The position numbers and the translations under genes are program-made. The notes under the pieces were generated by a model. That model had not been told where the DNA came from. It made no database searches and was given only the letters and a program-made list of their open reading frames with translations. A stretch of 64,000 bases of DNA from a virus: IMG/VR virus record IMGVR_UViG_3300036985_004568, positions 1-64,000 of that record. One strand, 5' to 3'. Of the stretch, positions 742 through 33,513 are shown piece after piece. Each line of letters opens with the position of its first letter. Within the stretch, counting starts at the first letter, position 1.

Positions 742-1029
742 ATGAAAAGACCAGCAAAAGTCACACTTCAAAGAGCAGTCAAGTTGTTAAGGGCTACCAA
801 TGGAACAGTCTTCAGGGCAACCTTCGTGAAGAGAACAGATGGTACCGTAAGGAACTTGGTAGGCAGGCTTGATGTGACCAAGGGAATCACAGGTAAGGGT
901 ATGGCATATGACCCTTTCGATAAAGGACTTATGACCGTATTTGATTTCCAGAAGAAGGCTTTCAGGATGGTGAATCTTGAATCCTTAACTGAGATAGTAG
1001 TGAAAGGACATACCTATGCGATTAAGTAA
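742..1029 (+). CDS. SH3-like beta-barrel phage protein
   Basis: 95 residues, basic, starting at ATG after AAAGGAGG. The pattern FVKRTDGTVRN, a central D-V-x-K-G-x-x-G-K-G, a GLMTVFD strand, then FRMVNLESL and G-H-T-Y, matches the general layout of a widespread small phage family usually described as having an SH3-like fold (K-x-D-G-x-x-R, then V-x-D, then Y-R-x-x-N-L). The biochemical role of that family is unknown. Its end overlaps the next start by 14 bases, so the two are translationally coupled. Confidence 0.7.
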   Translation: MKRPAKVTLQRAVKLLRATNGTVFRATFVKRTDGTVRNLVGRLDVTKGITGKGMAYDPFDKGLMTVFDFQKKAFRMVNLESLTEIVVKGHTYAIK

Positions 1030-1264
1030 GTATTACACACAAGGTGATGGTGAGGGTAATGTGTATACAATTAGAAAAATGAAAGGACCAGGTCTTAAGA
1101 ATTGGAGAGTTACTTATCAGGGTAGGTTCTTTAAAAATGGGGAAGAGTTTGTTTCGGACCCTAATGGTCAACATTATGACTATTATAACTATGCGGATAT
1201 TAGAAAGCACCTAGACCCCATTACTAAAAAACAACTTATGATTTTAGTATTAAAACACTACTAA
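1016..1264 (+). CDS. Small protein of the C-terminal tail family
   Basis: 82 residues, beginning inside the end of the preceding gene. The body is rich in Gly, Tyr and charged residues and looks like a small beta barrel. It ends in P-I-T-K-K-Q-L-M-I-L-V-L-K-H-Y, a variant of the tail (K/R)-x-L-T-x-x-E-x-x-hydrophobic-Y seen at the end of many small proteins in this window. No known domain is recognised. Real-gene status rests on codon-like composition, overlap coupling, and the shared tail. Confidence 0.7.
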   Translation: MRLSKYYTQGDGEGNVYTIRKMKGPGLKNWRVTYQGRFFKNGEEFVSDPNGQHYDYYNYADIRKHLDPITKKQLMILVLKHY

Positions 1265-1273
1265 GGAGGTATT

Positions 1274-1459
1274 ATGGAACAAGACTTGATTCTAGGATTC
1301 AAAGAACTTAGACGCAAGATCTGGGAAGGGATGTCAATAACAGAACTGTACCAAGTAAAGAATAGCAGGCTGGAGATGCTGGATTCAGGTATGCATATCG
1401 ATAAAAAAGATTTGGAAGAGATTAACAGGGAGTTAAGAAAGAGAGGGGAAAATGTCTGA
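1274..1459 (+). CDS. Small helical protein of unknown function
   Basis: 61 residues behind AAGGAGG with an ATG at the normal spacing. Predicted largely helical and rich in Glu, Leu, Arg and Lys (EINRELRKRGE at the C-terminus), so it may be a small coiled-coil or regulator. It overlaps the next start by eight bases (ATGTCTGA). The minus-strand frame over the same place is a shadow. No family is recognised. Confidence 0.6.
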   Translation: MEQDLILGFKELRRKIWEGMSITELYQVKNSRLEMLDSGMHIDKKDLEEINRELRKRGENV

Positions 1460-1610
1460 ACCATATGCTAGAACCAAGATACCAATTGAGACCTTGATGG
1501 ACGAAGCTTATGCTTGGTGGGAAAGTAAACTAGACCACGAGAAACAAAATATGTATTTAGAGTTGTATATGAAAGCTAAGAAGATAGGACCAGAAGAAGT
1601 TCAATACTAA
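1452..1610 (+). CDS. Small protein of unknown function
   Basis: 52 residues, starting at an ATG that overlaps the stop of the preceding gene (ATGTCTGA) and ending TAA just before the AAGGAGG of the next gene. The sequence has a YAWWES segment and a long charged helix (KLDHEKQNMYLELYMKAKK). Coupling at both ends and the perfect fit in the gap support it as a gene. Function cannot be assigned. Confidence 0.6.
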   Translation: MSEPYARTKIPIETLMDEAYAWWESKLDHEKQNMYLELYMKAKKIGPEEVQY

Positions 1611-1620
1611 GGAGGTTAAG

Positions 1621-1869
1621 ATGGCAAAGAGTACCAAGTTCAAGAAAGGTGAGTACGCGATTCAGATCAATGCTCCAATGGATAACTGCTTGGTAAGGAT
1701 TCTGGATAATGACACTGTATCAAAGGATGGTTTCTACAGGCATGAACATCTTGGGGGTGGAGGAAAAGACTTTATTAGTCAGCCCCAAATGGGAGTTGTA
1801 CACGGTAAGTTTCTTCGTAGGGCTACCAAGAAGGAAATTCTAATCCACGCCGTAAGAAAGGAGTATTAA
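1621..1869 (+). CDS. Small protein of the C-terminal tail family
   Basis: 82 residues with a strong AAGGAGG upstream. It opens with a F-K-K-G-E-Y-A segment like the F/Y-K-V-G-D-x-V opening of other beta-barrel-like members here, has a Gly-rich loop (HLGGGGKDF) and closes with R-R-A-T-K-K-E-I-L-I-H-A-V-R-K-E-Y, which fits the shared tail (T-x-x-E, hydrophobic run, terminal Tyr). There are no cysteine pairs, so it belongs to the non-zinc branch of the group. Function unknown. Confidence 0.72.
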   Translation: MAKSTKFKKGEYAIQINAPMDNCLVRILDNDTVSKDGFYRHEHLGGGGKDFISQPQMGVVHGKFLRRATKKEILIHAVRKEY

Positions 1870-1886
1870 AAAAGAAAGCAAACTAT

Positions 1887-2015: not shown

Positions 2016-2029
2016 AAAGGAGTTACCAA

Positions 2030-2869: not shown

Positions 2870-2931
2870 ATCCCGCGGAATAGTCTTGGTAAGCTCCTTA
2901 TCTAAATCTCATTAAGGAAAAATAACAACAC

Positions 2932-3926: not shown

Positions 3927-3955
3927 TTGACAAATCAACAAAGATGTGTTATACT
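3927..3955 (+). promoter_or_regulatory. Sigma-70-type promoter
   Basis: TTGACA at 3927-3932, 17-base spacer, TATACT at 3950-3955, preceded by TGT (extended -10). The first 12 bases around the -35 (ACTTGACAAATC) are repeated at the promoter at 6695. The next start, ATG 3982 with AAAGGAG, lies about 20 bases downstream of the expected +1. An AT-rich inverted repeat (AATAATT/AATTATT, 3882-3897) lies upstream. Confidence 0.85.
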
Positions 3956-3981: not shown

Positions 3982-4551
3982 ATGTTAGTAAGCAGAGGGA
4001 ACCATAAGTTGGGGACTGATACCTTGATCTTGAACATCACCAGCGCGGCCGATTGCATGTCTCGGAAGCTGGGTCTTTGTGCTCTAGGTACCAAGTGTTA
4101 TGCTATGAAGGCTGAGCGCATGTATAAAGCCGTCCTGCCTTACCGGAGTAAACAGACTGAGTATTGGGACCAGAATCATCCGGCCACGATTGCAATGGAT
4201 CTCTGGAAGGAAGTTTCCAGGACTACCAAGCAACCAATCAAGTACATTCGGATCTCAGAAGCAGGAGACTTCAGGGACCAAGCAGACGTAGACAAGTTGA
4301 TCAAAATAGCAGAAATACTTGGGGCTATTGATGTTACGTTATATGGATACACGGCCCGTAAGGACCTAGCCTTTGGTAAGTGCCCGAGCAACCTGATCAT
4401 GAATGGCTCAGGGTTTATGATTCACAATAGCTTCACGGCCGTACCTAAAGTTAGCCTGGCCCAGCACAAGGTAACATGCGCGGGGAACTGCCGGGGATGC
4501 AACCTTTGTAAGATCCGCGGGAAGCTGGCCATCAAAGTGGGGATACACTGA
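3982..4551 (+). CDS. GP88-like conserved phage protein with Cys clusters
   Basis: 189 residues from ATG 3982; the in-frame ATG at 3946 lies inside the promoter and is rejected. The pattern T-L-I-L-N-I-T-S-A-A-D-C, then L-C-x-x-G-x-x-C-Y-A-M-K-A-E, P-Y-R-x-x-Q and Y-W fits a phage family known as gene product 88, whose members have a Cys-rich N-terminal part. I see R-I-S-E-A-G-D-F near residue 95 and a second Cys cluster near the end (CAGNCRGCNLC), which could hold zinc or an iron-sulphur cluster. The gene is richer in GC than its neighbours. Biochemical function of the family is not established. It heads the transcript from the promoter at 3927. Confidence 0.65.
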   Translation: MLVSRGNHKLGTDTLILNITSAADCMSRKLGLCALGTKCYAMKAERMYKAVLPYRSKQTEYWDQNHPATIAMDLWKEVSRTTKQPIKYIRISEAGDFRDQADVDKLIKIAEILGAIDVTLYGYTARKDLAFGKCPSNLIMNGSGFMIHNSFTAVPKVSLAQHKVTCAGNCRGCNLCKIRGKLAIKVGIH

Positions 4552-4763
4552 TGAAGAGCACACATGGGCCCGTACGCTTACCAAAGTATACCAAGCGGAA
4601 ATGGATCTGTAAGAAGCTTAATACCTGTGGTTCTCCAGACTGTTTATGTTATAAGCCACATGAACATAGTTCTAGATGTGGTCACTTTTGTTCTGCTGAA
4701 CCTGCTGGATATGGTACCTGTAGGCCCCTAGTAAAGGGGGAGGAGCTAATCTATGGCTACTAA
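4551..4763 (+). CDS. Cys-rich tail-family protein
   Basis: 70 residues, start overlapping the preceding TGA (TGATG). I-C-K-K-L-N-T-C-G-S-P-D-C-L-C with P-H-E-H, then C-G-H-F-C, ends in C-R-P-L-V-K-G-E-E-L-I-Y-G-Y. First of six consecutive genes sharing the plan I-C-x(5)-C-x(4)-C, H-x-x-x-H, further Cys, C-R/K-x-L and a final Tyr. Probably binds one or two zinc ions through Cys and His. Function unknown. The last codons overlap the next gene by 11 bases. Confidence 0.75.
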   Translation: MKSTHGPVRLPKYTKRKWICKKLNTCGSPDCLCYKPHEHSSRCGHFCSAEPAGYGTCRPLVKGEELIYGY

Positions 4764-4986
4764 AATTAGAACAGATAGTTATGAACCAATAAAGGGAACT
4801 GTAATATGTAGGGGTCACCTAGACTGCCGTTCCAAAATGGGTTGTCCCCATCATAAGTTACATAAGTGGATAAAAAATGAAGAAGGCCGTCCAAGTCATC
4901 AAGAATGTTTCAACCAAATACTTGGTCCTTCCCACTGTGACTGTATCCCAATGACCAAAGTAGGACTTCTATTGGAGTCCTATTAA
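4753..4986 (+). CDS. Cys-rich tail-family protein, long N-terminal form
   Basis: 77 residues overlapping both neighbours. An N-terminal R-x-D-S-Y-E-P-I-K-G-T-V precedes I-C-R-G-H-L-D-C-R-S-K-M-G-C-P-H-H-K-L-H-K-W, then Cys residues near 51, 62 and 64, ending T-K-V-G-L-L-L-E-S-Y. The closest relative is the protein at 5449 (D-M-W-E-P-I-K-G-W-V-I-C-Q-G-Y-K-T-C). The block 4551/4753/4986 therefore looks like a duplicate of the block 5232/5449/5685. Confidence 0.75.
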   Translation: MATKIRTDSYEPIKGTVICRGHLDCRSKMGCPHHKLHKWIKNEEGRPSHQECFNQILGPSHCDCIPMTKVGLLLESY

Positions 4987-5168
4987 TGGTAAAGTTAATA
5001 TGTTCCAAGTGGTTAAAGTGTACTAATAAAGAGTGTCCCGCCAAGGTGGCCCATGTGGCACGCCATGGGTGTTGTGATGGCCCTAAGTGTTATTATGAAT
5101 CTAATATTGGGAGAAAGGTAAAGTGTAGAAAACTAACTAAGGAAGAGGAAATTTTAATCTATTATTAA
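4986..5168 (+). CDS. Cys-rich tail-family protein
   Basis: 60 residues, ATG overlapping the previous TAA. L-I-C-S-K-W-L-K-C-T-N-K-E-C with A-H-x-x-x-H, then GCCDGPKC and V-K-C-R-K-L-T-K-E-E-E-I-L-I-Y-Y, one of the clearest copies of the tail. Likely a compact zinc-binding fold. Third member of the first three-gene block. Confidence 0.76.
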   Translation: MVKLICSKWLKCTNKECPAKVAHVARHGCCDGPKCYYESNIGRKVKCRKLTKEEEILIYY

Positions 5169-5178: not shown

Positions 5179-5247
5179 ATGAAACTAATGGAAAAGTTAT
5201 TCCCCCCTCAGGGCTACCAAGGGAGGCCTAAATGTCTAAAGAAGTGA
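5179..5247 (+). CDS. Possible 22-residue micro-ORF
   Basis: ATG at 5179 behind a very good AAAGGAG; reads 22 codons to TGA at 5245, overlapping the start at 5232 by 16 bases. It includes PPQGYQGRPK. It may be a leader that couples translation to the next gene, since the ribosome binding site for 5232 (GGGAGG) lies inside it. It could equally be a remnant. Confidence 0.35.
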   Translation: MKLMEKLFPPQGYQGRPKCLKK

Positions 5248-5459
5248 TCTGTGACCACTACAAAGAATGTAAAGCTAAAGGATGCCACCATATTAAACCA
5301 CATACAACTGTTGACTTTTCTGCTATACTAAGAAGATCCTTTGCTACAAAGACTACCTGCCTTGATCCTGATTTATGTACTGGCCTAACTCTATCATTTC
5401 CGGTTAGAGTAAGATGTAGAGCTTTAAAGAAGGGTGAGAAGCTAATCTATGCCTACTAA
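5232..5459 (+). CDS. Cys-rich tail-family protein
   Basis: 75 residues. V-I-C-D-H-Y-K-E-C-K-A-K-G-C-H-H-I-K-P-H, a middle segment with C-L-D-P-D-L-C, then V-R-C-R-A-L-K-K-G-E-K-L-I-Y-A-Y; the end closely matches the protein at 4551 (K-G-E-E-L-I-Y-G-Y). First member of the second three-gene block. Overlaps the next gene by 11 bases, the same overlap as in the first block. Confidence 0.75.
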   Translation: MSKEVICDHYKECKAKGCHHIKPHTTVDFSAILRRSFATKTTCLDPDLCTGLTLSFPVRVRCRALKKGEKLIYAY

Positions 5460-5685
5460 ACAACGTAAAGATATGTGGGAGCCAATTAAAGGATGGGTAA
5501 TTTGTCAGGGCTACAAGACCTGTTCATCCAAAAGAGCATGTCTTCATTCTAGGTTGCATAGGTGGAGAAGGTCCCCAAAGTTTAAAGAGGGGATAGATTG
5601 TTGCTATAATAGTGATTCTAGTAAACAAAATACTTGTAACTGCTCACATAAAACTAAAACAGAATTAATGCTGGAGGCCTATTAA
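5449..5685 (+). CDS. Cys-rich tail-family protein, long N-terminal form
   Basis: 78 residues. Resembles the protein at 4753 throughout: M-x-T-K-x-R at the start, E-P-I-K-G, V-I-C-Q-G-Y-K-T-C-S-S-K-R-A-C, H-S-R-L-H-R-W, later CC and C-x-C, and a T-E-L-M-L-E-A-Y ending. Second member of the second block, coupled to both neighbours by overlaps. Confidence 0.75.
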   Translation: MPTKQRKDMWEPIKGWVICQGYKTCSSKRACLHSRLHRWRRSPKFKEGIDCCYNSDSSKQNTCNCSHKTKTELMLEAY

Positions 5686-5870
5686 TGGAAAAACGAATCT
5701 GTCCACGCGCTGGAACTTGTTGTGATTATGCTCCCTGTAAGCATAGTCGGCCACATATACCCAATGATAACTGTTATGCTACCACCATTCTCTGTACATA
5801 CCACTGCTGTGAAGCCACTCCTGAATTACTGGAGAAGATAGAAGCAGAGAAGATAGTAAATAATTATTAA
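5685..5870 (+). CDS. Cys-rich tail-family protein
   Basis: 61 residues starting on the previous TAA (TAATG). R-I-C-P-R-A-G-T-C-C-D-Y-A-P-C-K-H-S-R-P-H, then CYATTILCTYHCC and a diverged tail (I-E-A-E-K-I-V-N-N-Y) that keeps the Glu, the hydrophobic run and the terminal Tyr. Last gene before a structured gap. Confidence 0.74.
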   Translation: MEKRICPRAGTCCDYAPCKHSRPHIPNDNCYATTILCTYHCCEATPELLEKIEAEKIVNNY

Positions 5871-5972: not shown

Positions 5973-6068
5973 ATGTCTCCCACCTTAATTCACTTATTTG
6001 ATGATATATTCAGTACTCTATTGGGTATTTTGGATGATATAGTCAATACTATACTAGGAGAAAACTAA
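5973..6068 (+). CDS. 31-residue amphipathic peptide
   Basis: ATG at 5973 behind GAGAGGAG, ending TAA with its last base shared with the next ATG. The product alternates hydrophobic residues with Asp (HLFDDIFSTLLGILDDIVN), giving an acidic amphipathic helix. Good ribosome binding site and coupling to the membrane protein at 6068 support it; no family is known. Confidence 0.5.
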   Translation: MSPTLIHLFDDIFSTLLGILDDIVNTILGEN

Positions 6069-6370
6069 TGTTAATTAGCCTATTTAACTGGTTTATTCAT
6101 TTAAATAACCCTATTGTAGCTGTTTTACTCATAGCTTTACCCTTTATAATTGCTGGATATATAGAAATAAATAGGGAGAAAGCCTGTAAAATAGGTAGAA
6201 TAGTCTATGATAAAGAGAGTAAGATAATAGGTAGAATTGATGGGGAAATAGATATGGACGGTACTATAAGACTTACGAATGACAGAGGAACTTATTGGTA
6301 TACGCAAGTGGGGAAGCTTAGAAGATTAACCCCTAAAGAAAGGTTTGATTATTATGTCCAATCTCTTTGA
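6068..6370 (+). CDS. Membrane-anchored tail-family protein
   Basis: 100 residues. One transmembrane segment near residues 14-32 (IVAVLLIALPFIIAGYI), then a cytoplasmic-type beta domain (I-G-R-I-V-Y-D-x-E-S-K-I-I-G-R-I-D) and the tail L-R-R-L-T-P-K-E-R-F-D-Y-Y-V-Q-S-L. It shows that the tail is also attached to membrane-anchored proteins. Overlaps the next gene. Confidence 0.7.
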   Translation: MLISLFNWFIHLNNPIVAVLLIALPFIIAGYIEINREKACKIGRIVYDKESKIIGRIDGEIDMDGTIRLTNDRGTYWYTQVGKLRRLTPKERFDYYVQSL

Positions 6371-6560
6371 AGTAGGTATGTGGGTAAATGACGGGCGAAA
6401 AGGTTGTGTGGGTCAAATAAAGATTTTAGGTAAGGAAACGGTGGAATTGTATTACCCCACTAAATACTCTACACACGGAATATGGTGGGATGCTTGGATT
6501 TGGGATATTGAATTTCTTACGGAACAAGAGCAATTACAAGTAATGTTAGATTTGCTTTAG
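6354..6560 (+). CDS. Small beta-barrel-like tail-family protein
   Basis: 68 residues from the ATG at 6354, inside the end of the preceding gene; a TTG three codons earlier is less likely. Opening F-E-V-G-M-W-V-N-D, then G-C-V-G-Q-I-K-I-L-G-K-E-T-V-E-L resembles KOW or SH3-type barrels. Trp-rich middle and tail F-L-T-E-Q-E-Q-L-Q-V-M-L-D-L-L. No cysteine pairs. Last gene before the promoter at 6695. Confidence 0.68.
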   Translation: MSNLFEVGMWVNDGRKGCVGQIKILGKETVELYYPTKYSTHGIWWDAWIWDIEFLTEQEQLQVMLDLL

Positions 6561-6694: not shown

Positions 6695-6723
6695 TTGACA
6701 AATCCCACTTTATATGCTATACT
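6695..6723 (+). promoter_or_regulatory. Sigma-70-type promoter
   Basis: TTGACA at 6695-6700, 17-base spacer, TATACT at 6718-6723 with TGC in front (extended -10). Shares ACTTGACAAATC with the promoter at 3927. The gene at 6742 starts about 12 bases downstream of the expected +1, after AAGGAG. An ATAGCAATTAAG motif at 6581-6592 also occurs upstream of the other promoter (3905-3916). Confidence 0.85.
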
Positions 6724-6741: not shown

Positions 6742-7056
6742 ATGTTTGAGATTGGAACATTTATAAAGTGTAAAAGGAAATCAAGATGGAAATATCAGGA
6801 AGATAAGATTCTCATATTTAAAATAGTAAGTACTAGGCTCTGTCAAGAAGCTAGCTGTATCTGGGGTAAAACTGAATCAGGCAAGAAGAAGATTTGTTCT
6901 AAATGTGATGGCATTATGTATCGGGGTTTAAATATACGAAAACCAGTTAAACCCAAGTCTTTTAATCTAGGGAAAAAGAAACCCTATGATTTTTCTTTGG
7001 CGGGATTTGATATGATACAAATTTCAGAAGCCGAGGTAATGGTGGAGCTGTTATGA
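6742..7056 (+). CDS. Zinc-binding beta-barrel-like tail-family protein
   Basis: 104 residues, first gene after a strong promoter. Opening M-F-E-I-G-T-F-I-K-C-K-R, Cys pairs L-C-Q-E-A-S-C and I-C-S-K-C-D-G-I-M-Y, then S-L-A-G-F-D-M-I-Q-I-S-E-A-E-V-M-V-E-L-L. Same plan as 3088 and 7053, including A-G-Y/F-N/D-x-x-Q before the tail. Likely one zinc site. Overlaps 7053 by four bases (ATGA). Confidence 0.78.
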   Translation: MFEIGTFIKCKRKSRWKYQEDKILIFKIVSTRLCQEASCIWGKTESGKKKICSKCDGIMYRGLNIRKPVKPKSFNLGKKKPYDFSLAGFDMIQISEAEVMVELL

Positions 7057-7325
7057 AAACATTTAAAGTCAAAGATATAGTTTTATTTAAGCGGCCTACA
7101 AATGGGGAAGAATTTAGAGTTATTATTGGCAGGATTACTAGCCTTGAAAAATGTACACCCGAAGTAGATTGTAGCTATAAGGGTACAAATAAGTTCTGTA
7201 ATAAATGTCACCACATAAAGTATAGGATTAAATCCCTAAATATAGCTAAGCCTCCGTTTGGGTATATGGCTGGCTTTAATTGTCAAAAATTAAATTCTGT
7301 AGAGGTTGCAGTCTATTTAATGTAG
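7053..7325 (+). CDS. Zinc-binding beta-barrel-like tail-family protein
   Basis: 90 residues. F-K-V-K-D-I-V-L-F-K-R opening, K-C-T-P-E-V-D-C and F-C-N-K-C-H Cys pairs, Y-M-A-G-F-N-C-Q-K-L-N-S-V-E-V-A-V-Y-L-M ending. Clear paralogue of 3088 (A-G-Y-N-M-Q-K-L-T-D-E-E-L-A-F-Y-L-L) and 6742. Coupled to 6742 by an ATGA overlap. Confidence 0.78.
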   Translation: MKTFKVKDIVLFKRPTNGEEFRVIIGRITSLEKCTPEVDCSYKGTNKFCNKCHHIKYRIKSLNIAKPPFGYMAGFNCQKLNSVEVAVYLM

Positions 7326-13697: not shown

Positions 13698-14785
13698 TGG
13701 TATTTTCAACGCTATACGCTAATGCAAGTAACGGTAAGATAAAGATGTGGAGCATTGAGGCTGATGGTAATACTATGATAATTCGTAGTGGATATGAGGG
13801 TGGAAAAATGGCCGAGCAAAGAAAAACCATTGTGGGTAAGAATATTGGTAAAGCCAATGAAACTTCAGATGGACAACAATGTCATTTGGAATGCAAATCT
13901 AAGTGGCAGAAGAAGATAGATGAACAATACTGTGAAGACCGTATGAAGATTAAGGAATATGGTGAACAAGAGATATTACTTCCTATGTTGGCCTTGAACT
14001 TTAGAGATAGGGAACACGACATTAAATTTCCCTGCTATGTCCAACCTAAAATTAATGGAGTAAGGTGTATCTATCAAGGAGATAAGTTTATATCCCGTAA
14101 AGGAAAAGAATATACAACTCTCAAGCATCTTGCTATAGAATTAAAGGAACTTGGAATCACTATGCCGGATGGAGAGATTTATGTTCACGGAATGGCCTTT
14201 CAAGAGATAATCCGTAGGGTAAAAAAAGATCGGGGTGTAAAGACACAGGCCTTAGAATATTGGATTTATGATCAAGTTAATGATCAGAAGTTTAAGGCGC
14301 GTAATGATGAAATTAGTAATAAATTTAAGGATTATTTTATCCAGGCTCCTAGTATTAGAAAGTGTAAGATAAAATATGTTGAAACTGTTTTAGTTAACTC
14401 TAAAGAAGAAATTAAACAATGGCACGGTAAATTTGTACAGCAGGGATTTGAAGGAGTAATTATTCGTAATGTGGATGGATTATATAAAGTGAAGCATCGT
14501 TCTCAGGATCTCCAAAAATATAAGGAGTTCTTTGATGCTGAATTTGAGATTGTAGGTTATCACGAAGGAACGGGTACGGATGATGGAACAGTTATATTTG
14601 AAGTAAAAACTAAAAAAGGACAAGTATTTAGTGTCCGGCCCAGGGGAACACATGAAGTAAGGTCGGAGTATTTGGAGGACATTTCTAGCATCATTGGGAA
14701 AGAACTTACAGTTAGATATCAAAACCTTAGTGAGGAAGGTATTCCAATTTTTCCAGTGGGAATATCTATTAGAGACTATGAATAA
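13697..14785 (+). CDS. ATP-dependent DNA ligase with WGR-like N-terminal region
   Basis: 362 residues, coupled to RuvB by a TAATG overlap. Residues 1-75 resemble the WGR-type module that precedes some phage ligases (L-Y, W-S-I-E, G-K-N-I-G-K-A-N-E-T). The nucleotidyltransferase domain has motif I K-I-N-G-V-R near residue 117, motif III P-D-G-E-I-Y near 155, motif IV E-G-V-I-I-R near 252 and motif V Y-K-V-K-H-R near 262; the OB domain ends the protein. Seals nicks during replication and recombination, using ATP and the motif I lysine. Confidence 0.87.
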   Translation: MVFSTLYANASNGKIKMWSIEADGNTMIIRSGYEGGKMAEQRKTIVGKNIGKANETSDGQQCHLECKSKWQKKIDEQYCEDRMKIKEYGEQEILLPMLALNFRDREHDIKFPCYVQPKINGVRCIYQGDKFISRKGKEYTTLKHLAIELKELGITMPDGEIYVHGMAFQEIIRRVKKDRGVKTQALEYWIYDQVNDQKFKARNDEISNKFKDYFIQAPSIRKCKIKYVETVLVNSKEEIKQWHGKFVQQGFEGVIIRNVDGLYKVKHRSQDLQKYKEFFDAEFEIVGYHEGTGTDDGTVIFEVKTKKGQVFSVRPRGTHEVRSEYLEDISSIIGKELTVRYQNLSEEGIPIFPVGISIRDYE

Positions 14786-14960
14786 AAGAATGATCTGCAT
14801 ACATAGAACTGAGAAGTGTGTAAGAACAGAATGTGTACATTGCGTACCACATGAAGAGAGACTAGGTATATGTGATAGAAAAGCGTGTGGCTATGCCTTT
14901 AATCAAAAAGCACATTGTAAAGTACTAACTAAAACAGAGTTAATTATTGAATCTTACTAA
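14778..14960 (+). CDS. Cys-rich tail-family protein
   Basis: 60 residues, ATG overlapping the end of the ligase gene by eight bases. M-I-C-I-H-R-T-E-K-C-V-R-T-E-C-V-H-C-V-P-H, then I-C-D-R-K-A-C and H-C-K-V-L-T-K-T-E-L-I-I-E-S-Y. A clear member of the group at 4551-5870, eight kilobases away. Likely zinc-binding; function unknown. Confidence 0.76.
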   Translation: MNKRMICIHRTEKCVRTECVHCVPHEERLGICDRKACGYAFNQKAHCKVLTKTELIIESY

Positions 14961-14970: not shown

Positions 14971-15261
14971 ATGAATGCTCCAATTATTGAACAAGGCAGT
15001 AATAATCTTTTTGCAGAACAAGTACCAGAACAGGTTGGATTGGATTTAAAGTGTCCTGGATGTGGAAACAACCTTACAATGAATGATAAGGGATTGGTAT
15101 GTCCCGTATGTGATAAAGAAAAGAAGGTATTGGTAAAAAAGCATTGGTTATTCGGATACAAGGTTATTGAAGCACATAATGTTTTTTGTGGGGAATATCT
15201 AACCATTGAACAGTGTGAGGAACTTACTAAAAAGGGAGTAGACATTAGTGTTAAATACTAA
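14971..15261 (+). CDS. Zinc-ribbon protein
   Basis: 96 residues from ATG 14971 after AAGGAGG; the frame upstream to 14947 lies in the previous gene and is rejected. L-K-C-P-G-C-G-N and V-C-P-V-C-D-K form a four-Cys ribbon at residues 29-50. No tail motif. Possible nucleic-acid binding. Confidence 0.7.
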   Translation: MNAPIIEQGSNNLFAEQVPEQVGLDLKCPGCGNNLTMNDKGLVCPVCDKEKKVLVKKHWLFGYKVIEAHNVFCGEYLTIEQCEELTKKGVDISVKY

Positions 15262-15478
15262 ACTATTTAAAGCATATTTAGTTGAAGTAACTGATGAAGC
15301 TTCCTTTTTGGAGAAGCACATTGTTATACTATTACTACAACCCACATTGGACTCAGTACCAACTATCTTTGATTATACGGAACTAAAAATAATTAGAACT
15401 GATAGTATCTATAAACTTATAAAAGAAATTAAGATGCCTAAGGATGCCGAGGCCAGGTTATTATTAACCTATTATTAG
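15248..15478 (+). CDS. Small protein with tail-like end
   Basis: 76 residues from a GTG overlapping the previous TAA by 14 bases. A beta-rich body with two predicted strands (AYLVEVT, HIVILLLQP) and the end M-P-K-D-A-E-A-R-L-L-L-T-Y-Y, which keeps the Glu, hydrophobic run and terminal Tyr of the tail family. No Cys. Function unknown. Confidence 0.6.
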   Translation: MLNTKLFKAYLVEVTDEASFLEKHIVILLLQPTLDSVPTIFDYTELKIIRTDSIYKLIKEIKMPKDAEARLLLTYY

Positions 15479-15626: not shown

Positions 15627-15803
15627 ATGGCCAAAGACATGATCTGCCCGGGATATAAAAAATGCCACCCTACAGCTTGTGCTTGTAGGGAGTTGCATGA
15701 ACAGGTCCACATATGTACTTCTTTTACCAGATGTCCTGAAGTAAATAGAAGAATTATATGTCGTAAGGCTACTAAAGAAGAAAAAATATATTTTAACTAT
15801 TAA
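15627..15803 (+). CDS. Cys-rich tail-family protein
   Basis: 58 residues. M-I-C-P-G-Y-K-K-C-H-P-T-A-C-A-C-R-E-L-H, then I-C-T-S-F-T-R-C and I-I-C-R-K-A-T-K-E-E-K-I-Y-F-N-Y. It has the same order of Cys, His and tail elements as the genes at 4986 and 5685. The 143-codon minus-strand frame over this region is a shadow. Confidence 0.75.
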   Translation: MAKDMICPGYKKCHPTACACRELHEQVHICTSFTRCPEVNRRIICRKATKEEKIYFNY

Positions 15804-15812: not shown

Positions 15813-15977
15813 ATGAAGAATAGAATATGTCCACGTTATAAAAAATGTAAAGAAGTCTGCTATCATAAAACAGTCCATGAAGTGGAAGACGGATGTGGGT
15901 ATAAATGTACCCCTAATGGAAAGATTGTAAACTGTAGACAAGCTACAATGGGAGAAATAATTATAGCGAATTTCTAA
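15813..15977 (+). CDS. Cys-rich tail-family protein
   Basis: 54 residues, ATG behind AAAGGAC. R-I-C-P-R-Y-K-K-C-K-E-V-C-Y-H-K-T-V-H, then G-C-G-Y-K-C and V-N-C-R-Q-A-T-M-G-E-I-I-I-A-N-F. The closest relative is its direct neighbour at 15627, suggesting tandem duplication. The 16-nt-type promoter follows its stop. Confidence 0.75.
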   Translation: MKNRICPRYKKCKEVCYHKTVHEVEDGCGYKCTPNGKIVNCRQATMGEIIIANF

Positions 15978-17958: not shown

Positions 17959-18728
17959 TGCCTAAGCAGATATTGGCAGTTGACTTTAGTGAGGTGTTCT
18001 TCTCTTCTGTGTTTGGCCATCAAAGGGCCTGCCAAATGGGTATGAAGTTACCATTAGAGTTTATTGTCTTAAAGAAACTATTCTCCTATCTTAAGGCATT
18101 TCCAGGGAGAGACATTTATATTATGTGCGATGGTACTAAGACTTGGCGCAAAGAAGTATACCCTGAGTACAAGGCACAAAGAAAAGCACAAAGGGAAAAG
18201 CATGAAGACCTGGATTGGACTGATATATTTTTAAAGTATGGTCGGATGATTAGTGATATAGAAAATTACACACCCATGCTCACCTTTAGGGATGATATTT
18301 TAGAGGCAGATGACCTTGAGGCCATCCTCGCTAAAGATGGGGAAGATATAATTATATTTAGTTCGGATAAAGACCTTAACCAGCTAACTATATACCCTAA
18401 CCTAAAATTAGTATCTCCAAAAGGAAAGAAAGTAAAGGGTAAATTTGTTTTTAAAGTAATAGAGGACCCAATAAAAGAATTAGATAAATTAGTGATGAAG
18501 GGGGATGTTGCAGATAATGTACCTAGGGCTTCCTCAGAAGCACAGAGAATAATAAATAATAAAATAGTTAATCTAATAAATCTTCCCACTAACATTGAAG
18601 AGCGTTGTAGGGCTGTACTCAATCAAGCACGATGTAAAACCCCTGACTTAATTGGCTTTTGTAACCTTTATAATTGGCAATTCGTTAGAATAGAGCTTAA
18701 AAAGATTTATCCTAATCATGCACTATAG
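17958..18728 (+). CDS. 5'-3' exonuclease / flap endonuclease
   Basis: 256 residues, FEN family as in T5 exonuclease and T4 RNase H. A-V-D-F-S near residue 6, M-C-D-G-T-K-T-W-R and Y-P-x-Y-K-A-x-R near 56-75, E-A-D-D-L-E-A near 115, S-S-D-K-D-L-N-Q near 135 and V-M-K-G-D-V-A-D-N-V-P-R near 178, the last being the helix-hairpin-helix metal site. Removes RNA primers and 5' flaps, cooperating with the PolA homologue and ligase; the PolA homologue here lacks its own 5' nuclease, which this gene supplies. Confidence 0.85.
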   Translation: MPKQILAVDFSEVFFSSVFGHQRACQMGMKLPLEFIVLKKLFSYLKAFPGRDIYIMCDGTKTWRKEVYPEYKAQRKAQREKHEDLDWTDIFLKYGRMISDIENYTPMLTFRDDILEADDLEAILAKDGEDIIIFSSDKDLNQLTIYPNLKLVSPKGKKVKGKFVFKVIEDPIKELDKLVMKGDVADNVPRASSEAQRIINNKIVNLINLPTNIEERCRAVLNQARCKTPDLIGFCNLYNWQFVRIELKKIYPNHAL

Positions 18729-18963
18729 AGCAAAGTTAAAGTTAAAGATAGGTGGATGGTACAGGACACAGAAGGGGGAGATTTATAAAATTGTGAAATG
18801 CCCCCATGAAGGATGTAGTGGAGACCACTGTTCTAACCAATTGATGGTATGTATGTATTCTCCTAAACGGATCATACGAAGTACGCTCTGTGGTAGTGGA
18901 TCAATACGGGCCGAACTTATCTATTATTGTACAGATGAAGAAATAACATTTCATTCATTATGA
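18718..18963 (+). CDS. Zinc-binding beta-barrel-like tail-family protein
   Basis: 81 residues starting inside the end of the exonuclease gene. K-I-G-G-W-Y-R-T-Q-K-G-E-I-Y-K-I-V-K-C resembles the barrel opening, followed by C-S-G-D-H-C, further Cys, and C-T-D-E-E-I-T-F-H-S-L, a tail variant with Thr and Glu-Glu. ATGA overlap couples it to the next gene. Confidence 0.66.
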   Translation: MHYRAKLKLKIGGWYRTQKGEIYKIVKCPHEGCSGDHCSNQLMVCMYSPKRIIRSTLCGSGSIRAELIYYCTDEEITFHSL

Positions 18964-19232
18964 AGCCAAAAATATTAAAATATAAAAAAGGGGACCTCTT
19001 TAAACATATTGATCATTTTGGTAAAGTTGAGTACTTTGTTGTTAGAGAATGTCGTTCAAGGGGATTTTGTGAACTAGCAGTAGCCAAAGCTACTATAAAT
19101 AAATTAGACTGTAAAGGGTTAGGTTTATACGCACTAGATAAGAAAGATTGGATATCCAGTTGCTCTAATTCTCAGCACCACCAGGAAATGAAAAAGTTAA
19201 CTGAAGCTGAAAAAATGTTAATGGGATACTAA
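18960..19232 (+). CDS. Zinc-binding beta-barrel-like tail-family protein
   Basis: 90 residues. Y-K-K-G-D-L-F-K-H-I-D-H-F-G-K-V-E-Y-F-V-V-R-E-C opening, C-R-S-R-G-F-C pair, later C and H residues, and M-K-K-L-T-E-A-E-K-M-L-M-G-Y, a near-ideal tail. Adjacent tandem relative of 18718. Function unknown. Confidence 0.75.
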   Translation: MKPKILKYKKGDLFKHIDHFGKVEYFVVRECRSRGFCELAVAKATINKLDCKGLGLYALDKKDWISSCSNSQHHQEMKKLTEAEKMLMGY

Positions 19233-23138: not shown

Positions 23139-23366
23139 ATGGGACAACGCTCTGATTGTTGTATGGCTAAAGTGAACATTGTTGGAGATACAGATCCACA
23201 TTATGTTTGTCGTAAATGTAAACAGTCCTGTCACATTATTATGAAAGTACGTAAAGACTGGGGACTTAATCCTAGTACTCAGGTACTACCTACGAAGAAA
23301 AGAAATAAAAGATTTAGATTAACCCCCAAAGAAGAACGAGAAATTAGGCGAGATCTATTCTATTAG
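23139..23366 (+). CDS. Zinc-finger protein with tail-like end
   Basis: 75 residues. S-D-C-C-M-A near the N-terminus and V-C-R-K-C-K near residue 27 give four Cys for one zinc. The end R-F-R-L-T-P-K-E-E-R-E-I-R-R-D-L-F-Y contains the L-T-P-K-E element and a terminal Tyr, linking it to the tail family. Confidence 0.7.
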   Translation: MGQRSDCCMAKVNIVGDTDPHYVCRKCKQSCHIIMKVRKDWGLNPSTQVLPTKKRNKRFRLTPKEEREIRRDLFY

Positions 23367-27576: not shown

Positions 27577-30500
27577 TTAAGAACCTCGGATCCACTTTAG
27601 AGACTTTAAAACCTTTTCTTAGGAAGTACCTACTGGTTAAAGGCACACAGTTTAAGGGTAGGTTGTTCTCCTGTCCTAATAAACAGGCTCATAAAAACCT
27701 GGATATTAAACCAGGTTGTAATTTTCTGGATAAAGAGGAAACTAAATTTTATTGCTATGTTTGCCTCCCCGGGCATGAAGAAGTAAGGACCTCATTAGGG
27801 CTTAAACCTATTAAAGATCTACTTATAGGGGAAAAGGTATATACAAGACTGGGACAAGAGACAACCCTTATTAATAAAGTAAAACATGATCCCCAGTATG
27901 CTATCATAAATTTGCAAACCGGCCTTACTCCTATTGGCCATAGTATGACCCAAAATCATGCGATTCCCATAATTAAACAAGAGCAAGTATATACAATGCC
28001 CTATATTGAATTAATTCCAAATAGGTATAAATTTTCTAGTAGGGCCTTTTATAGAAACCATATTTCTAAATATACTGATGTTTTAAATATCTTTAAAGTG
28101 CCCGCTAAAGATATTAGAGTTGGGGATTATTTATTATATCCAGAAACTAGACATATTACCGATTACTCTAAAATCTATACAGATAGAATAATTAAAAAAT
28201 ATACAAAAGGCCCCATGAATAAACGTATTACAAAAATTCCACTAGAGGACGACATTTTATGGATGTTTGGTCTCTATATTGCAGAGGGTAATACATATAG
28301 AGGAGGGGTAAGGTTTACTTTACATAAAAATGAAACTGCCTATCAAATAAAATTAAAGCAAATTTTTAAAACATATTTTGCTAAAGACTTAGTTGAGCGC
28401 GTTCATAATAATTCTTGGACTGCTACTTGTTCATCTACAGACCTAGAGCTTATTTTTAGAGAATTATTTAATGATTTAGCAGAAAATAAAATATATCCAT
28501 ATTTCTTTAATTATCTCCCTATTGATAAGCGGCATGCCTTATTTTCTGGAATAATGGCTGGGGATGGATCTAAAACAAGAGAATTTATTAAAATAACTAG
28601 TTCTGCCCTGATTGCACAATTATTTGATTTAGGTATATCCTTACATAAAATCCCTAGTTATCAAGAATACCCAGAATATACGGATAACATGGGAATTAGG
28701 CATTTAAAAACTTATAGTCTTTCTTTTATAAGACCCTCACTCAGGGGATTTTTTGAGACTATTGAAGGTGTTACTTATTTATTACAACAAGTAACTAAAA
28801 TTTCCTTATGTGGACAGGAGCCGGTATATGATATAACCGTAAAAGATCAAGATCATTCCTTTGTTGGAAAATTCTTTACTTTTTATAATTGTGGCGCATC
28901 TGGTGATATCGTAGATGCAGTACATCTTTTAGAGGCTAGACCTATAACTGGTTCAGGTTTTCATGATACAATAGAATACTTATGTAAGTTAGTTAAGGTA
29001 CCATTTGAATTGGCTGAAGAGACCCCAGAGTCTAAATTTATGCAAGAGGTAGAGGCCTTCTTGGGTGCTTTAGTGTCCAAAGCCCATACTAATCTTAAAA
29101 ATTTAGTAGTTACTCAGCCCGAACATCCGGCGGTTAAACTATTACAGACTAAGGGATGGTTAAATAGTGTAGACACCTATAAACTTGGATTGATCCAAGC
29201 GGTTAAGGAGAATAAGTCCCAGAAATTGATGGATGTTTGTAACTTTTTAAATTTAGACCTTAATCACTTAGTTAATGGTATTATTATTCCAATTGAGTTT
29301 AAGCATAAGTTAATAGGATTTCAGATCAGAGCCACTGATTTAAATACATTAGGGGGCATGAAGTATAAGACTTATTTATCTACTAGTAAAGGATTGTTTA
29401 ACCTAGATAATATTGATGCCTCCCAACCAGTCTATATAGTAGAAGGGGCCTCATCTGTTATAGTTATGCATAACTTTGGAATAGACAATGTTGTTTCTAC
29501 CTTAGGTAACGGATTAAATGAATCCCACTATGAGGCATTAATTTCTAAGGATGTTAAAGATGTATGTGTATTATATGACAATGATGAAGGTGGAGAGTTA
29601 GGTAGAAAACGGGGTTGTGAGACATTTGTAGGTAAGGGCGAGATCAAACTAAACTTCAAACTATTGTCTAAGGAGAATGACCCGGCCGATTATGTGTTGG
29701 CAGGTAATAAATTAGAAACTTTACCAACATTAACTTTATGGGATTACCTTTTACACAAAGGATATAAAGAGTTGATGTTAAAGTATGTAGCAGCACAGCA
29801 GGATTTAATTGATAAAGAGAAGTTGGTTAATATACTAGCTAAAGAACTAGATGTTCCTAAGAGCATACTCTTGGAAGAAATCCATAAGTATGAAAGCACA
29901 ATAAGTGAAGTTCCCACCATCATGTCTTTAAAAGAGAAGGAAAGTATTATTGAGACTATTAATACTTTCGAAAAATGGGCATGGAGTCGTGGGGAATTAC
30001 TGGGAATAAAATCATTTGATTGCTTTGATAAATGCTTTGATGGATTACAGGAAGGATTGATTTTGGTAGGTGGTGCGCCTAACGTAGGAAAATGCTTAAG
30101 TGGGGAGACTCTTATCCAAACTACTTTAGGGTTAGTTCCGATACAGAACCTATTTAAAGAAAAAAATAAAGTAATAGGTACATTTACTAATCCTACAGAT
30201 AAATTCTCAGTTCCCGGCCCACTTAGTTTAGAGCCAGTAACCAAACTTTATTATACAAAAAGTAAATGTTATAAGGTAATTTTAAATAATGGCCGAGAAA
30301 TTATAGGAACGCCAGAACATCCCCTCTTAACTAATATTGGGGTATTTAAACAGCTTAAAGAACTCACTTTAAAGGACCAACTAATAACTAGTAATGGGGC
30401 AAATATTTGGGGGACTAAAGTTACTTTAAATAAATTTGTGCCTTCCCAACAATTATTGGCTACTGCAACCATAATTCCTAAAATGTATCCAATAGAATTA

Positions 30501-32129
30501 ACCAAAGATTTAGCCTTTTTACTCGGATTATATATAGGAGATGGCGCATGTTTTGCTCCAGATTTTTCTATTACCCAAAAAACACCGTATAATACAACTA
30601 TAAATAAACTGATTAAAAAACTCTTTGGTATTAGGCCCCACACATATAAATTGGAATTGTCGGCAGGTAGGTTAATTCGAACCTATTTTGAGGAAATATT
30701 AGGAGTGCCCTATGTTACAGGTGGGTATAAAGAAGTCCCTTCTTGTATATGGACTGCCCCCAAAGAGGTTGTAGCTGCATTTATAAGTGGTTATTTTGCT
30801 GCCGATGGATATATAAATAAAACTAGAGTCGAGATTAGTTTAACTACAAAATCTTATAAAATGTCCCAACAATTGGCTACACTATTAGATAATTTTGGTG
30901 TAAGAAATTATATTAGGGTAGTAAATAGATGTGCATCTAATACTAAATTAAAAATTAAACGAAACTATTATACAGTTACAGTACGTGGAACCTATGAAGA
31001 TGCTGTACGTTTTAGAAGTGAAGTTTGTAGTAATCGTACGGGAAGATCCGGAAAATTCCATGCTCTAGAAAAATTAACTGGACAGTTTAATAGAAGTTAT
31101 CAGCCACTTAGGACGAATACAGGTATACGGTTTGAGCCTATGGGAATAAAAGAAATAATTTATTTAACAAAAGAACAAGAAGTATATGATATTAGTGTAC
31201 CAACAACGCACCAGTTTATTGCTAATGGCATTGTAAGTCATAATAGCGCGCTTACAACGTCAATAGCCTGTAGAATTATGGAGACCACTCCAAATCCCTA
31301 TATTATCTATTTGAGTATAGACGATTCTGCTATTATAACTACGGCTAGATTTTTAGCTAACTTATCTGGTATTCCTATTAATATTGTTTCAAATCCTAAA
31401 CATCGTATTGTTGAAAATAAGTATTATACGGATGCCGAAAGAAAAGATTTGATGGTGCGTAGAGAAAAGGCCCTAGAGTATATGCGTAAACATGTGACTG
31501 TCTTTAATTTGAAGGATGCGTCTAGTGGATATACTATTGAATATTTAAATACACTCTTTAAATCCCTAGAACCTATTATTAAAGATAAGAAGGTTGTCTT
31601 AATAGTGGATAATCTGCATAAATTACGAAGTCTTAGGGATTTTAAGAGTGATAAGTCTTTGGTGGACTCTGTATGTAGTAATTTAAAGATTCTTTCAGGT
31701 GTGTACAAGTGCCCAGTAATAGCCACTGTTGAACATACAAAGGCATCTATACAATTAGGTGAAGTTGGAGGTTCGGCGATAAAAGAGTCCTCTTCGTTGC
31801 ATTATGATGCTAATTTAATTCTGACTGTTGTGCTAAAGCAGGTGGTTGGTACCTTTAAATTGGTTGATGTAATAGTTAGTAAAAATAAAATGAGTACTTT
31901 TATTGGAGCCCTACCCTTTAGACTATATCCTGATCAAAGTAGAATGGAAGCCTGTGATGGAAATGCCTCTAACTTTGGATTACCCCAGGATGGACCTGTA
32001 TCCCAAGAAGTTAAAACTGAACCTATTACTCAAGGAGAACCTGATGGAAAAATTTCAAGTAATGGAGAAGGAAATCCTATTAATAAAGAACAAGGAACTC
32101 CAGGAGTGGGTACGGAAGAGCCTAAATAA
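27573..32129 (+). CDS. Bifunctional primase-helicase with two inteins
   Basis: 1518 residues, of which 758 remain after excision of inteins at residues 64-439 and 841-1224. The N-terminal zinc domain has C34, H40, C61 and the Cys just after intein 1; a Toprim domain follows (I-V-E-G-A-S-S near residue 623, L-Y-D-N-D-E-G-G near 668) and a DnaB/RecA-type helicase whose Walker A G-G-A-P-N-V-G-K/S is split by intein 2. Walker B is V-V-L-I-V-D-N near 1345. The plan is that of T7 gp4-type primase-helicases: RNA primer synthesis plus hexameric unwinding at the fork. Both insertions hit essential sites, so the product is inactive until spliced. The end overlaps the HD gene by 86 bases. Confidence 0.88.
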   Translation: MIKNLGSTLETLKPFLRKYLLVKGTQFKGRLFSCPNKQAHKNLDIKPGCNFLDKEETKFYCYVCLPGHEEVRTSLGLKPIKDLLIGEKVYTRLGQETTLINKVKHDPQYAIINLQTGLTPIGHSMTQNHAIPIIKQEQVYTMPYIELIPNRYKFSSRAFYRNHISKYTDVLNIFKVPAKDIRVGDYLLYPETRHITDYSKIYTDRIIKKYTKGPMNKRITKIPLEDDILWMFGLYIAEGNTYRGGVRFTLHKNETAYQIKLKQIFKTYFAKDLVERVHNNSWTATCSSTDLELIFRELFNDLAENKIYPYFFNYLPIDKRHALFSGIMAGDGSKTREFIKITSSALIAQLFDLGISLHKIPSYQEYPEYTDNMGIRHLKTYSLSFIRPSLRGFFETIEGVTYLLQQVTKISLCGQEPVYDITVKDQDHSFVGKFFTFYNCGASGDIVDAVHLLEARPITGSGFHDTIEYLCKLVKVPFELAEETPESKFMQEVEAFLGALVSKAHTNLKNLVVTQPEHPAVKLLQTKGWLNSVDTYKLGLIQAVKENKSQKLMDVCNFLNLDLNHLVNGIIIPIEFKHKLIGFQIRATDLNTLGGMKYKTYLSTSKGLFNLDNIDASQPVYIVEGASSVIVMHNFGIDNVVSTLGNGLNESHYEALISKDVKDVCVLYDNDEGGELGRKRGCETFVGKGEIKLNFKLLSKENDPADYVLAGNKLETLPTLTLWDYLLHKGYKELMLKYVAAQQDLIDKEKLVNILAKELDVPKSILLEEIHKYESTISEVPTIMSLKEKESIIETINTFEKWAWSRGELLGIKSFDCFDKCFDGLQEGLILVGGAPNVGKCLSGETLIQTTLGLVPIQNLFKEKNKVIGTFTNPTDKFSVPGPLSLEPVTKLYYTKSKCYKVILNNGREIIGTPEHPLLTNIGVFKQLKELTLKDQLITSNGANIWGTKVTLNKFVPSQQLLATATIIPKMYPIELTKDLAFLLGLYIGDGACFAPDFSITQKTPYNTTINKLIKKLFGIRPHTYKLELSAGRLIRTYFEEILGVPYVTGGYKEVPSCIWTAPKEVVAAFISGYFAADGYINKTRVEISLTTKSYKMSQQLATLLDNFGVRNYIRVVNRCASNTKLKIKRNYYTVTVRGTYEDAVRFRSEVCSNRTGRSGKFHALEKLTGQFNRSYQPLRTNTGIRFEPMGIKEIIYLTKEQEVYDISVPTTHQFIANGIVSHNSALTTSIACRIMETTPNPYIIYLSIDDSAIITTARFLANLSGIPINIVSNPKHRIVENKYYTDAERKDLMVRREKALEYMRKHVTVFNLKDASSGYTIEYLNTLFKSLEPIIKDKKVVLIVDNLHKLRSLRDFKSDKSLVDSVCSNLKILSGVYKCPVIATVEHTKASIQLGEVGGSAIKESSSLHYDANLILTVVLKQVVGTFKLVDVIVSKNKMSTFIGALPFRLYPDQSRMEACDGNASNFGLPQDGPVSQEVKTEPITQGEPDGKISSNGEGNPINKEQGTPGVGTEEPK
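27762..28889 (+). other. Intein 1 of the primase-helicase, with LAGLIDADG endonuclease
   Basis: 376 residues from Cys64 to Asn439. It begins C-L-P-G-H-E-E-V and ends K-F-F-T-F-Y-N before a +1 Cys. Two LAGLIDADG-like motifs, F-G-L-Y-I-A-E-G-N and F-S-G-I-M-A-G-D-G-S, mark a homing endonuclease. Block B is M-T-Q-N-H-A-I-P. The residue before the final Asn is Tyr, where His is usual, so splicing may be slow or use another helper residue. It splits the zinc-binding domain just before its last Cys ligand. Confidence 0.85.
30093..31244 (+). other. Intein 2 of the primase-helicase, with LAGLIDADG endonuclease
   Basis: 384 residues from Cys841 to Asn1224, ending I-V-S-H-N before a +1 Ser. Block B is G-T-P-E-H-P-L-L-T; endonuclease motifs L-G-L-Y-I-G-D-G-A and S-G-Y-F-A-A-D-G-Y are present. 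Inserted exactly between Lys and Ser of the helicase Walker A loop, a favoured site for inteins in P-loop ATPases. Confidence 0.9.
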
Positions 32130-32586
32130 TACTCCCGACTATTTCTTTAAGGGTTGGGCATCCTCCACAGGTAAATACCATCCCGCGTGTACCTGTAAAG
32201 ATGGGGGCCTAGTAGTGCATGTTAAACGCGCTGTTTACATTGCTAATAGGCTATGTGGTGGGTGGGGTTTAGTAGAAGAAAATAGGGATATAGTTCTAGC
32301 TGCAACTATTCTACATGATATAGCTAAAGTTGGGCAGGGATCTGGTCCTTATATAGACTATGTTAATCATCCATTAAATGCTGAGAAGTATTTAATACAA
32401 GACAGCCTTACTCCAGAATTATATACTAAAATTAATAATTGTATACGTCATCATATGGGACTATGGACTCCCGATGGAGTTAAGAAGCCCCTTACAGAGT
32501 ATAGTTTGCTAGAATTGGCAACCTACTCAGCGGACTATATGGCAACTACTAAGGACTTGATTACTCCGGAGGACACACTTGGATAA
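32044..32586 (+). CDS. HD-domain metal-dependent phosphohydrolase
   Basis: 180 residues from ATG 32044 behind AAGGAG, within the end of the primase-helicase frame; the longer frame to 31903 is rejected. G-G-L-V-V-H-V near residue 58, I-L-H-D-I-A-K-V-G near 90, N-H-P near 110 and I-R-H-H-M-G-L-W near 135 supply the His/Asp ligands. The order resembles the HD domain of YhaM-type 3'-5' exoribonucleases and related nucleotide phosphohydrolases. Substrate unknown; a nucleotide is likely given the replication neighbours. Confidence 0.8.
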   Translation: MEKFQVMEKEILLIKNKELQEWVRKSLNNTPDYFFKGWASSTGKYHPACTCKDGGLVVHVKRAVYIANRLCGGWGLVEENRDIVLAATILHDIAKVGQGSGPYIDYVNHPLNAEKYLIQDSLTPELYTKINNCIRHHMGLWTPDGVKKPLTEYSLLELATYSADYMATTKDLITPEDTLG

Positions 32587-33256
32587 ATTAGCCTTAGAGC
32601 AGAGAATTAAGGAACTAGCGCCCTGGTTTCACTATATAGAATTTCCTTATGGTTTAAAGTCCAGAGAGTGCAAGGACCTCAAACATGATGTCTATAACCA
32701 TCCTTTATCCCTAGCAGATAGATTGGAGAAAGTACTTCCAATTAATAGTGTAAAGGATAAATTGATTCTAGATATGGGGTGTAATGGAGGTTACTTTACT
32801 TACCTATATGCTAAAAATGGGGGTAGAGTGGATGCAATGGACCTTAATCGACGTTATGTGGATCAAACTAAATTTGTACGGGAAGTCTTCTCTGAGGAAT
32901 TTAGTACCATGCCAACAGTGTCTATGGCCGATATTGAAACATTAGCAATGCCTCCAGAAACTTACGATATAAGTTTAGGACTAGGTCTTTTATATCACGT
33001 CCCTAATCCCGTCCTTGCCTTACATAATTTCTATAAGGTAACTAAAACGGGAGGACTTTGCATCTTAGAGTCTAATTGCTCTCCTAAAATACCAGAAGGT
33101 ACTGTAGAATTTATGGGAAATATTAAACCATATAGTGCAGTCTGGAGATTTTCTGCACAGACATTAAGAGATATGGTAGAGTATGTCGGATTTAATGTAG
33201 AGGAAAGTATTGTATTTTCTGCCGGTAATAGGATAATCATATACGCCACTAAATGA
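32579..33256 (+). CDS. CmoB-like SAM-dependent methyltransferase
   Basis: 225 residues from TTG with GGAGG upstream, overlapping the HD gene by eight bases. P-W-F-H-Y-I-E-F near residue 15 and the class I motif I-L-D-M-G-C-N-G-G-Y-F-T near 63, A-M-D-L-N near 85, G-L-L-Y-H-V near 137 and L-E-S-N near 162. The P-W-x-H-x-I-E start and spacing resemble tRNA wobble-uridine CmoB and the DUF1698 group, which act on tRNA; that assignment is tentative. It might instead modify phage DNA bases. Confidence 0.72.
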   Translation: MDKLALEQRIKELAPWFHYIEFPYGLKSRECKDLKHDVYNHPLSLADRLEKVLPINSVKDKLILDMGCNGGYFTYLYAKNGGRVDAMDLNRRYVDQTKFVREVFSEEFSTMPTVSMADIETLAMPPETYDISLGLGLLYHVPNPVLALHNFYKVTKTGGLCILESNCSPKIPEGTVEFMGNIKPYSAVWRFSAQTLRDMVEYVGFNVEESIVFSAGNRIIIYATK

Positions 33257-33513
33257 GTATTAGAAATAATAAATTTAAAGTAGGCCAGATTTGGAAACGG
33301 ACCTTTTCTGATGCAGTCATGTATCAGATTGTATCTTGTAATAAGGGTAAAAATACGTATGCTGACTTTGATCCTATACTATGTAAACGATGTACTATTA
33401 ATTCCATGTTACTACCACCAAAGTGTAATTTAGGATATTGTTGTAGACTACATGTAAATAATACTCATATTAAAAAGTTAACAAAACTTGAAGCATTACT
33501 GGAGAATTTTTAA
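33253..33513 (+). CDS. Zinc-binding beta-barrel-like tail-family protein
   Basis: 86 residues, coupled to both neighbours. F-K-V-G-Q-I-W-K-R-T opening, Y-Q-I-V-S-C, L-C-K-R-C-T pair, C-x(5)-CC, and H-I-K-K-L-T-K-L-E-A-L-L-E-N-F tail. It sits immediately before the DNA polymerase, so the tail family also reaches into the replication operon. Confidence 0.75.
   Translation: MSIRNNKFKVGQIWKRTFSDAVMYQIVSCNKGKNTYADFDPILCKRCTINSMLLPPKCNLGYCCRLHVNNTHIKKLTKLEALLENF

Follow-up and report, generated by a model that had tools for sequence, protein, structure and literature searches.

A shared helical C-terminal tail is carried by a set of small, fast-changing and probably early-made proteins of a virus, and such a tail has so far been undescribed on proteins of this kind. 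In our preferred explanation, to which we assign a probability of roughly one half, the tail would be an old strand-helix end that has been kept by a diversifying family of early proteins, that packs on its own domain and that is probably used for association. The window, a stretch of 64 kb from a virus record of 95,374 b, was read for all of its open reading frames together with the rest of the record, and genes were called mechanically with our own caller in this phage and in the sole relative found, IMGVR_UViG_3300036980_001087 (96,942 b), which has a 65% identical DNA polymerase and broad synteny. The relative was located through its polymerase, capsid and terminase and through tail patterns. 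Beyond this one sister phage no relatives were detected in named phages, IMG/VR or GTDB at the sensitivity of pattern searches and tblastn; the remaining pattern matches were at chance level, and an apparent tail-only match (L013) was dropped because no open reading frame supported it. tblastn of seven tail proteins against known phages returned nothing or chance-level matches only, and Pfam, PHROGs and PDB sequence searches with the tail proteins gave no homology to a known family. The comparative evidence is that of two genomes, with shallow family alignments and a modest control set.

Reading of the open reading frames confirmed that genes exist at the starts assigned in a first-pass annotation, which had proposed that about 20 unrelated-looking small proteins end in one common tail (Table 1). 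Further cases were found outside the window in the same record, at 93971 and 93181, with a variant at 93708.

Table 1. Tail genes and promoters, with coordinates in the window. Short tails are written out; SH3-like assignments of 1621 and 6354 are our own reading.
Coordinates	Strand	Feature	C-terminal tail	Remarks
1016..1264	+	82-aa protein	ITKKQLMILVLKHY	Long class, cap to end 12 residues; tail identical in relative
1621..1869	+	82-aa protein, SH3-like	ATKKEILIHAVRKEY	Long class, 13 residues
3088..3393	+	SH3-like/Cys protein	LTDEELAFYLL	SH3-like family
3927..3955	+	TTGACA-17-TATACT promoter		TG ahead of -10; heads Cys-gene array; relative 70115
4551..4763	+	Cys-family protein	LVKGEELIYGY	Downstream gene's Shine-Dalgarno and ATG within tail
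4753..4986	+	Cys-family protein	MTKVGLLLESY	
4986..5168	+	Cys-family protein	LTKEEEILIYY	AlphaFold2: strands 3-6 and 45-49, helix 52-59
5232..5459	+	Cys-family protein	LKKGEKLIYAY	Downstream gene's start within tail
5449..5685	+	Cys-family protein	KTKTELMLEAY	
5685..5870	+	Cys-family protein	KIEAEKIVNNY	Variant tail, no Thr cap
6068..6370	+	Hydrophobic N-terminus, probable membrane protein	LTPKERFDYYVQSL	Long class
6354..6560	+	SH3-like protein	LTEQEQLQVMLDLL	Long class
6695..6723	+	TTGACA-17-TATACT promoter		TG ahead of -10; just 5' of 6742; relative 72756
6742..7056	+	SH3-like/Cys protein	ISEAEVMVELL	
7053..7325	+	SH3-like/Cys protein	LNSVEVAVYLM	AlphaFold2: four strands and C-terminal helix 82-89
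14778..14960	+	Cys-family protein	LTKTELIIESY	
15248..15478	+	Uncertain member	KMPKDAEARLLLTYY	
15627..15803	+	Cys-family protein	ATKEEKIYFNY	
15813..15977	+	Cys-family protein	ATMGEIIIANF	
18718..18963	+	SH3-like/Cys protein	CTDEEITFHSL	
18960..19232	+	SH3-like/Cys protein	LTEAEKMLMGY	
23139..23366	+	Cys-containing protein	LTPKEEREIRRDLFY	Long class
33253..33513	+	SH3-like/Cys protein	LTKLEALLENF	

The bodies are less diverse than had been proposed. Nine of the proteins in the window belong to a single Cys/His family (labelled Cys-family in Table 1) and six to a single SH3-like family (labelled SH3-like/Cys), with about six singletons among the tail genes; the assignment was made by body, after the tails had already been seen. 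Members of the first family, six of which occur in the relative, have the core I-C...C...C...H...C, and across its 15 sequences C6, C12, C17, H23 and C47 are invariant and one further Cys is nearly so. We infer from these sequences a metal-binding-like mini-domain that would bind metal. The SH3-like family, with three to four members in the relative, combines a strand resembling F-K-V-G-D with a Cys cluster; no Pfam or PHROGs family, SH3/KOW included, gave it a meaningful score. What stood of the original claim is that one tail is found on different bodies, for at least two families that do not align with each other.

Profiles of the two sets of tails recognised each other. When 333 C-termini were ranked by a 12-column profile built from the SH3-type tails, the first 14 places all went to Cys-family tails, of which there are 15, and the five best matches to a profile of the Cys-family tails were SH3-type tails. 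When the full families were compared by HMM-HMM alignment, only the last 17-18 columns aligned (P=0.004 and P=0.0016 in two comparisons); the tails alone gave P=1.4e-6, whereas the bodies alone did not align (P=0.49). Compared with internal T-x-x-E sites of matching hydrophobic pattern, the tails also scored higher across families (p=2.5e-5 and 0.004). A strand-helix end by itself does not account for this, and common ancestry or a common partner is required as well. The long-class tails did not align with the two short-class families in the profile comparison.

The distance from cap to chain end follows a rule. All small proteins of both phages were scanned for hydrophobic-[T/S]-x-x-E placed 4-30 residues from the C-terminus, with the last residue left free. 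The distances from T/S to the end were 9 (n=13), 12 (n=6), 13 (n=5) and 16 (n=2), with zero cases at 4-8, 10, 11, 14 and 15, so that 26 small-protein matches fell at these four distances and 7 elsewhere. The matches at the four distances are tail genes, except for 49062 (LSEEELVIEQNNGGL, distance 13) and the pair at 93181 (distance 16). The 354 control small proteins, drawn from three named phages (T4, SPO1 and Jay2Jay), about 25 miscellaneous IMG/VR contigs and bacteria, displayed no peak (none at distance 9, one at 12, none at 13 and three at 16), and 4 of their 29 matches lay at the four distances; the Fisher P against the phage pair, about 2e-7, should be taken as indicative, because the distance set was picked post hoc and the counts include orthologues, which are not independent of one another. 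The large proteins of these two phages had no peak at these distances. A Cys-family gene of the relative that the caller had overlooked (81383-81583) was identified from its start; its end, CRKATEEEIIESSY, is one that the distance rule predicts. Tyr or Phe is the terminal residue in 69% of tail genes, which had been selected partly by their ends, compared with 9% of other small proteins and 9% of large ones; in the Cys family, which is defined by its body, the figure is 14 of 15 members. Among the looser cases of the first-pass annotation, 1016, 1621, 6068, 6354 and 23139 could be retained as tails whose helix has roughly one extra turn (12-13 residues), while the T-x-x-E cap is missing from 5685 and 15248. 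The cross-family profiles, the HMM comparison and the distance scan establish the tails as real and as more than a chance likeness.

AlphaFold2 models predicted a terminal strand followed by a helix over the tail of both 4986 (mean pLDDT 72, last ten residues 85) and 7053 (mean pLDDT 76, last ten residues 89), with moderate confidence, as they were built from 15 and 11 sequences respectively; in both, the tail scores above most of the remaining model. The hydrophobic positions, -1, 5, 6 and 9 in the short class and -1, 5, 7-9 and 12 in the long class, all lie on one helical face, and the terminal residue is always on that face. Since the steps between the distances correspond to turns of an alpha-helix, the tail appears to be a capped amphipathic helix whose last residue lies on the hydrophobic face. 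In most members of the Cys family the last conserved Cys is four residues ahead of the cap, too close for a flexible linker to fit between them. We accordingly take the strand and helix of the tail to be an integral end of the domain. Foldseek gave no significant match; the best PDB fold match was the MSL3 chromo barrel (E=0.56), and the barrel matches were weak and non-significant.

Between the two phages the bodies turn over while the tail persists, and the exact chain end is always kept. At 1621 the tail is identical in 14 of 14 residues with a body identity of 71%, at 6068 an identical tail accompanies a body of 52% identity, and at 33253 the tail protein is unchanged despite several synonymous changes, on a body of 50% identity. 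Constraint differs by pair, the tail at 93971 having changed. Pooled over 14 gene pairs from the two genomes, several pairs differing hardly at all in the tail, orthologue pN/pS was 0.34 for tails and 0.50 for bodies, and about 1% of random 13-codon windows reach the tail value. Where tail positions share a residue, the codons match in 134 of 313 comparisons, against 139 expected from codon usage. This chance-level codon identity argues against recent swapping of the tail as DNA, and the module swapping that had been suggested is unsupported in a recent form, the tail also joining the last Cys without a linker.

A search of the whole 95 kb for TTGACA-(16-18)-TATA[A/T/C]T found only three near-consensus sigma70-type promoters (3927, 6695 and 86886), each found again at the corresponding site of the relative; two of the three (3927 and 6695) lie inside the tail-gene array. 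Conserved promoters in this position suggest that the tail proteins are made immediate-early, through transcription by the host polymerase.

In the preferred explanation, the tail would comprise the last beta-strand and a short amphipathic alpha-helix that is capped by Thr or Ser and in most cases ends in Tyr, Phe or Leu. The simplest origin would be old common descent of this strand-helix end, with bodies that diverged or were replaced long ago while the end was retained. It may have been retained because it closes the mini-domain, packing onto its own body, and it probably also supplies a hydrophobic surface, common to the set, by which the proteins associate with their own kind or with one another. 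The Cys/His metal-binding-like family, the SH3-like family and a few singletons would together form an expanding, fast-diversifying set, the synthesis of which is probably driven by strong host-type promoters immediately after infection. Common descent is not demonstrated, since the bodies of the two families have no detectable similarity, and the cross-family likeness of the tails exceeds a purely structural need, which speaks against this account.

That excess, beyond a generic helix, would fit a tail that is a docking module, one helical C-terminal ligand bringing different bodies to a single host or phage hub. We consider this the main rival and possible, with clearly lower probability. 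The frequency of terminal Tyr/Phe, in the body-defined Cys family as well, the exact retention of the chain end and the persistence of the tail while bodies turn over are in its favour, and the clamp-binding C-termini shared by T4 proteins would, by analogy, be a precedent. However, a flexible linker between body and tail is missing, and the models make the helix integral to the domain and give it high confidence; together with the helical spacing they favour a folded helix over a free extended peptide. The beta-clamp family PF02767 was absent from both genomes in searches in which the positive controls worked; a search for the gp45 family PF09116 also gave no match, with its positive control likewise silent. 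A clamp of the host could still be the partner. More tentatively still, one folded helix might act as a universal plug by which differing immediate-early bodies are delivered to, or assembled on, a single hub.

T-x-x-E is the capping box of helices in general, and helices with an amphipathic pattern are widespread. A generic C-terminal helix could thus have arisen by convergence on tiny zinc or SH3-like domains, with no shared origin or partner, and the failure of long-class tails to align with short-class family profiles fits such a view. We nevertheless regard it as unlikely, as the pattern is absent among the 354 control small proteins and the likeness across families exceeds that of the hydrophobic pattern alone. 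A degradation tag for a Clp-type or other protease is highly improbable: the C-termini are hydrophobic and the phage has its own ClpP homologue (39382-40068; CLP_protease, E=5e-29), but the helical spacing and high predicted order are unsuited to an unstructured degron, and the tail ends are presumably unlike known ClpX C-terminal signals.

Many tail genes overlap the following gene, and signals of this overlap account for a few residues of the tails. In several tail genes the GGAG of the downstream Shine-Dalgarno codes for the Glu three residues before the C-terminus. At 4551 and 5232 it specifies Gly-Glu-(Glu/Lys), and the codons for Tyr-Gly or Tyr-Ala contain the ATG of the following gene. 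The notion that the final codons are dictated by downstream Shine-Dalgarno and start codons, and that the tail is a by-product, is nonetheless largely refuted and receives hardly any weight, since the cap is also kept at 14778, 4986, 1016 and 6354, where the Shine-Dalgarno lies 3' of the stop or there is no close downstream gene, and since 6 of 8 TAATG-overlapped tail genes end in Tyr/Phe, compared with none of the 15 other small genes and 2 of the 26 large ones. The stop codons at 1264 and 14960 sit inside a full Shine-Dalgarno (TAAGGAGGT), locking stop and ribosome site together.

Other features of the genome were recorded alongside. The ClpP homologue (PF00574, + strand; head maturation or ATP-dependent protease in PHROGs) lies among replication genes and does not adjoin capsid genes. 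Intein-like insertions are present in the terminase, the primase-helicase and a third protein (51297-53513, 27573-32129 and 46849-48438); their counterparts in the relative are shorter, the insertions apparently missing at least in the terminase and the third protein. The segments 742-1264 and 1452-1610 (relative 67128-67990) have about 86-98% protein identity, compared with 65% for the DNA polymerase, which suggests recent exchange or strong constraint. A weak sigma-70 region 2 match (26828-27208, E=0.01) may mark a phage sigma factor. Separate shared C-termini also occur: paralogues at 207-431, 2030-2869 and 94246-95085 (full record) end in ALDxVxxKYGQYxxxKEL, and proteins of the relative (L008:2775-3293, L010:3456-4052 and similar), which we take to be probable HNH homing endonucleases and which are absent at equivalent places here, share the end CFHYTNLQPLW.

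Phage early genes are mostly tiny orphans that offer no handle on function. The tail signature links about 20 orphan genes in one genome and is predicted to form a helix with a fixed end, so that a single bait would test the whole set, and it illustrates that an array of orphan genes can retain one structural element while the remainder changes.

No description of a shared tail of such kind was found in the literature (openly licensed papers), and none of the tested T4, SPO1 and Jay2Jay stretches has a shared C-terminal element with this spacing. The earlier statement that no phage system of this type had been described was, however, too strong. In T4, the C-termini of gp43, gp55 and gp33 carry hydrophobic/acidic motifs that are interchangeable and by which these proteins dock on the sliding clamp; the co-crystallised ligand from RB69 polymerase is its last 11 residues, and the gp55 motif, which binds the phage clamp, is on a variable, probably unstructured linker (PMC2988020). 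In both cases a short, hydrophobic C-terminal segment with acidic residues is common to several phage proteins that have nothing else to link them. Unlike the T4 tails, those described here have no linker, are predicted to be folded into the domain and occur on many more genes, and no beta-clamp homologue was found. Chromo-barrel, Tudor and other SH3-like small barrels resemble the predicted model in their SH3-like strands, after which chromo domains also have a C-terminal helix, with the non-significant fold match given above; in contrast to these barrels, the SH3-like family has no sequence-family match and has Cys clusters inserted. The terminal region of SPO1 is an array of small early host-takeover proteins of a lytic phage, and the genes described here, short overlapping orphans near strong promoters, are like arrays of the SPO1 type.
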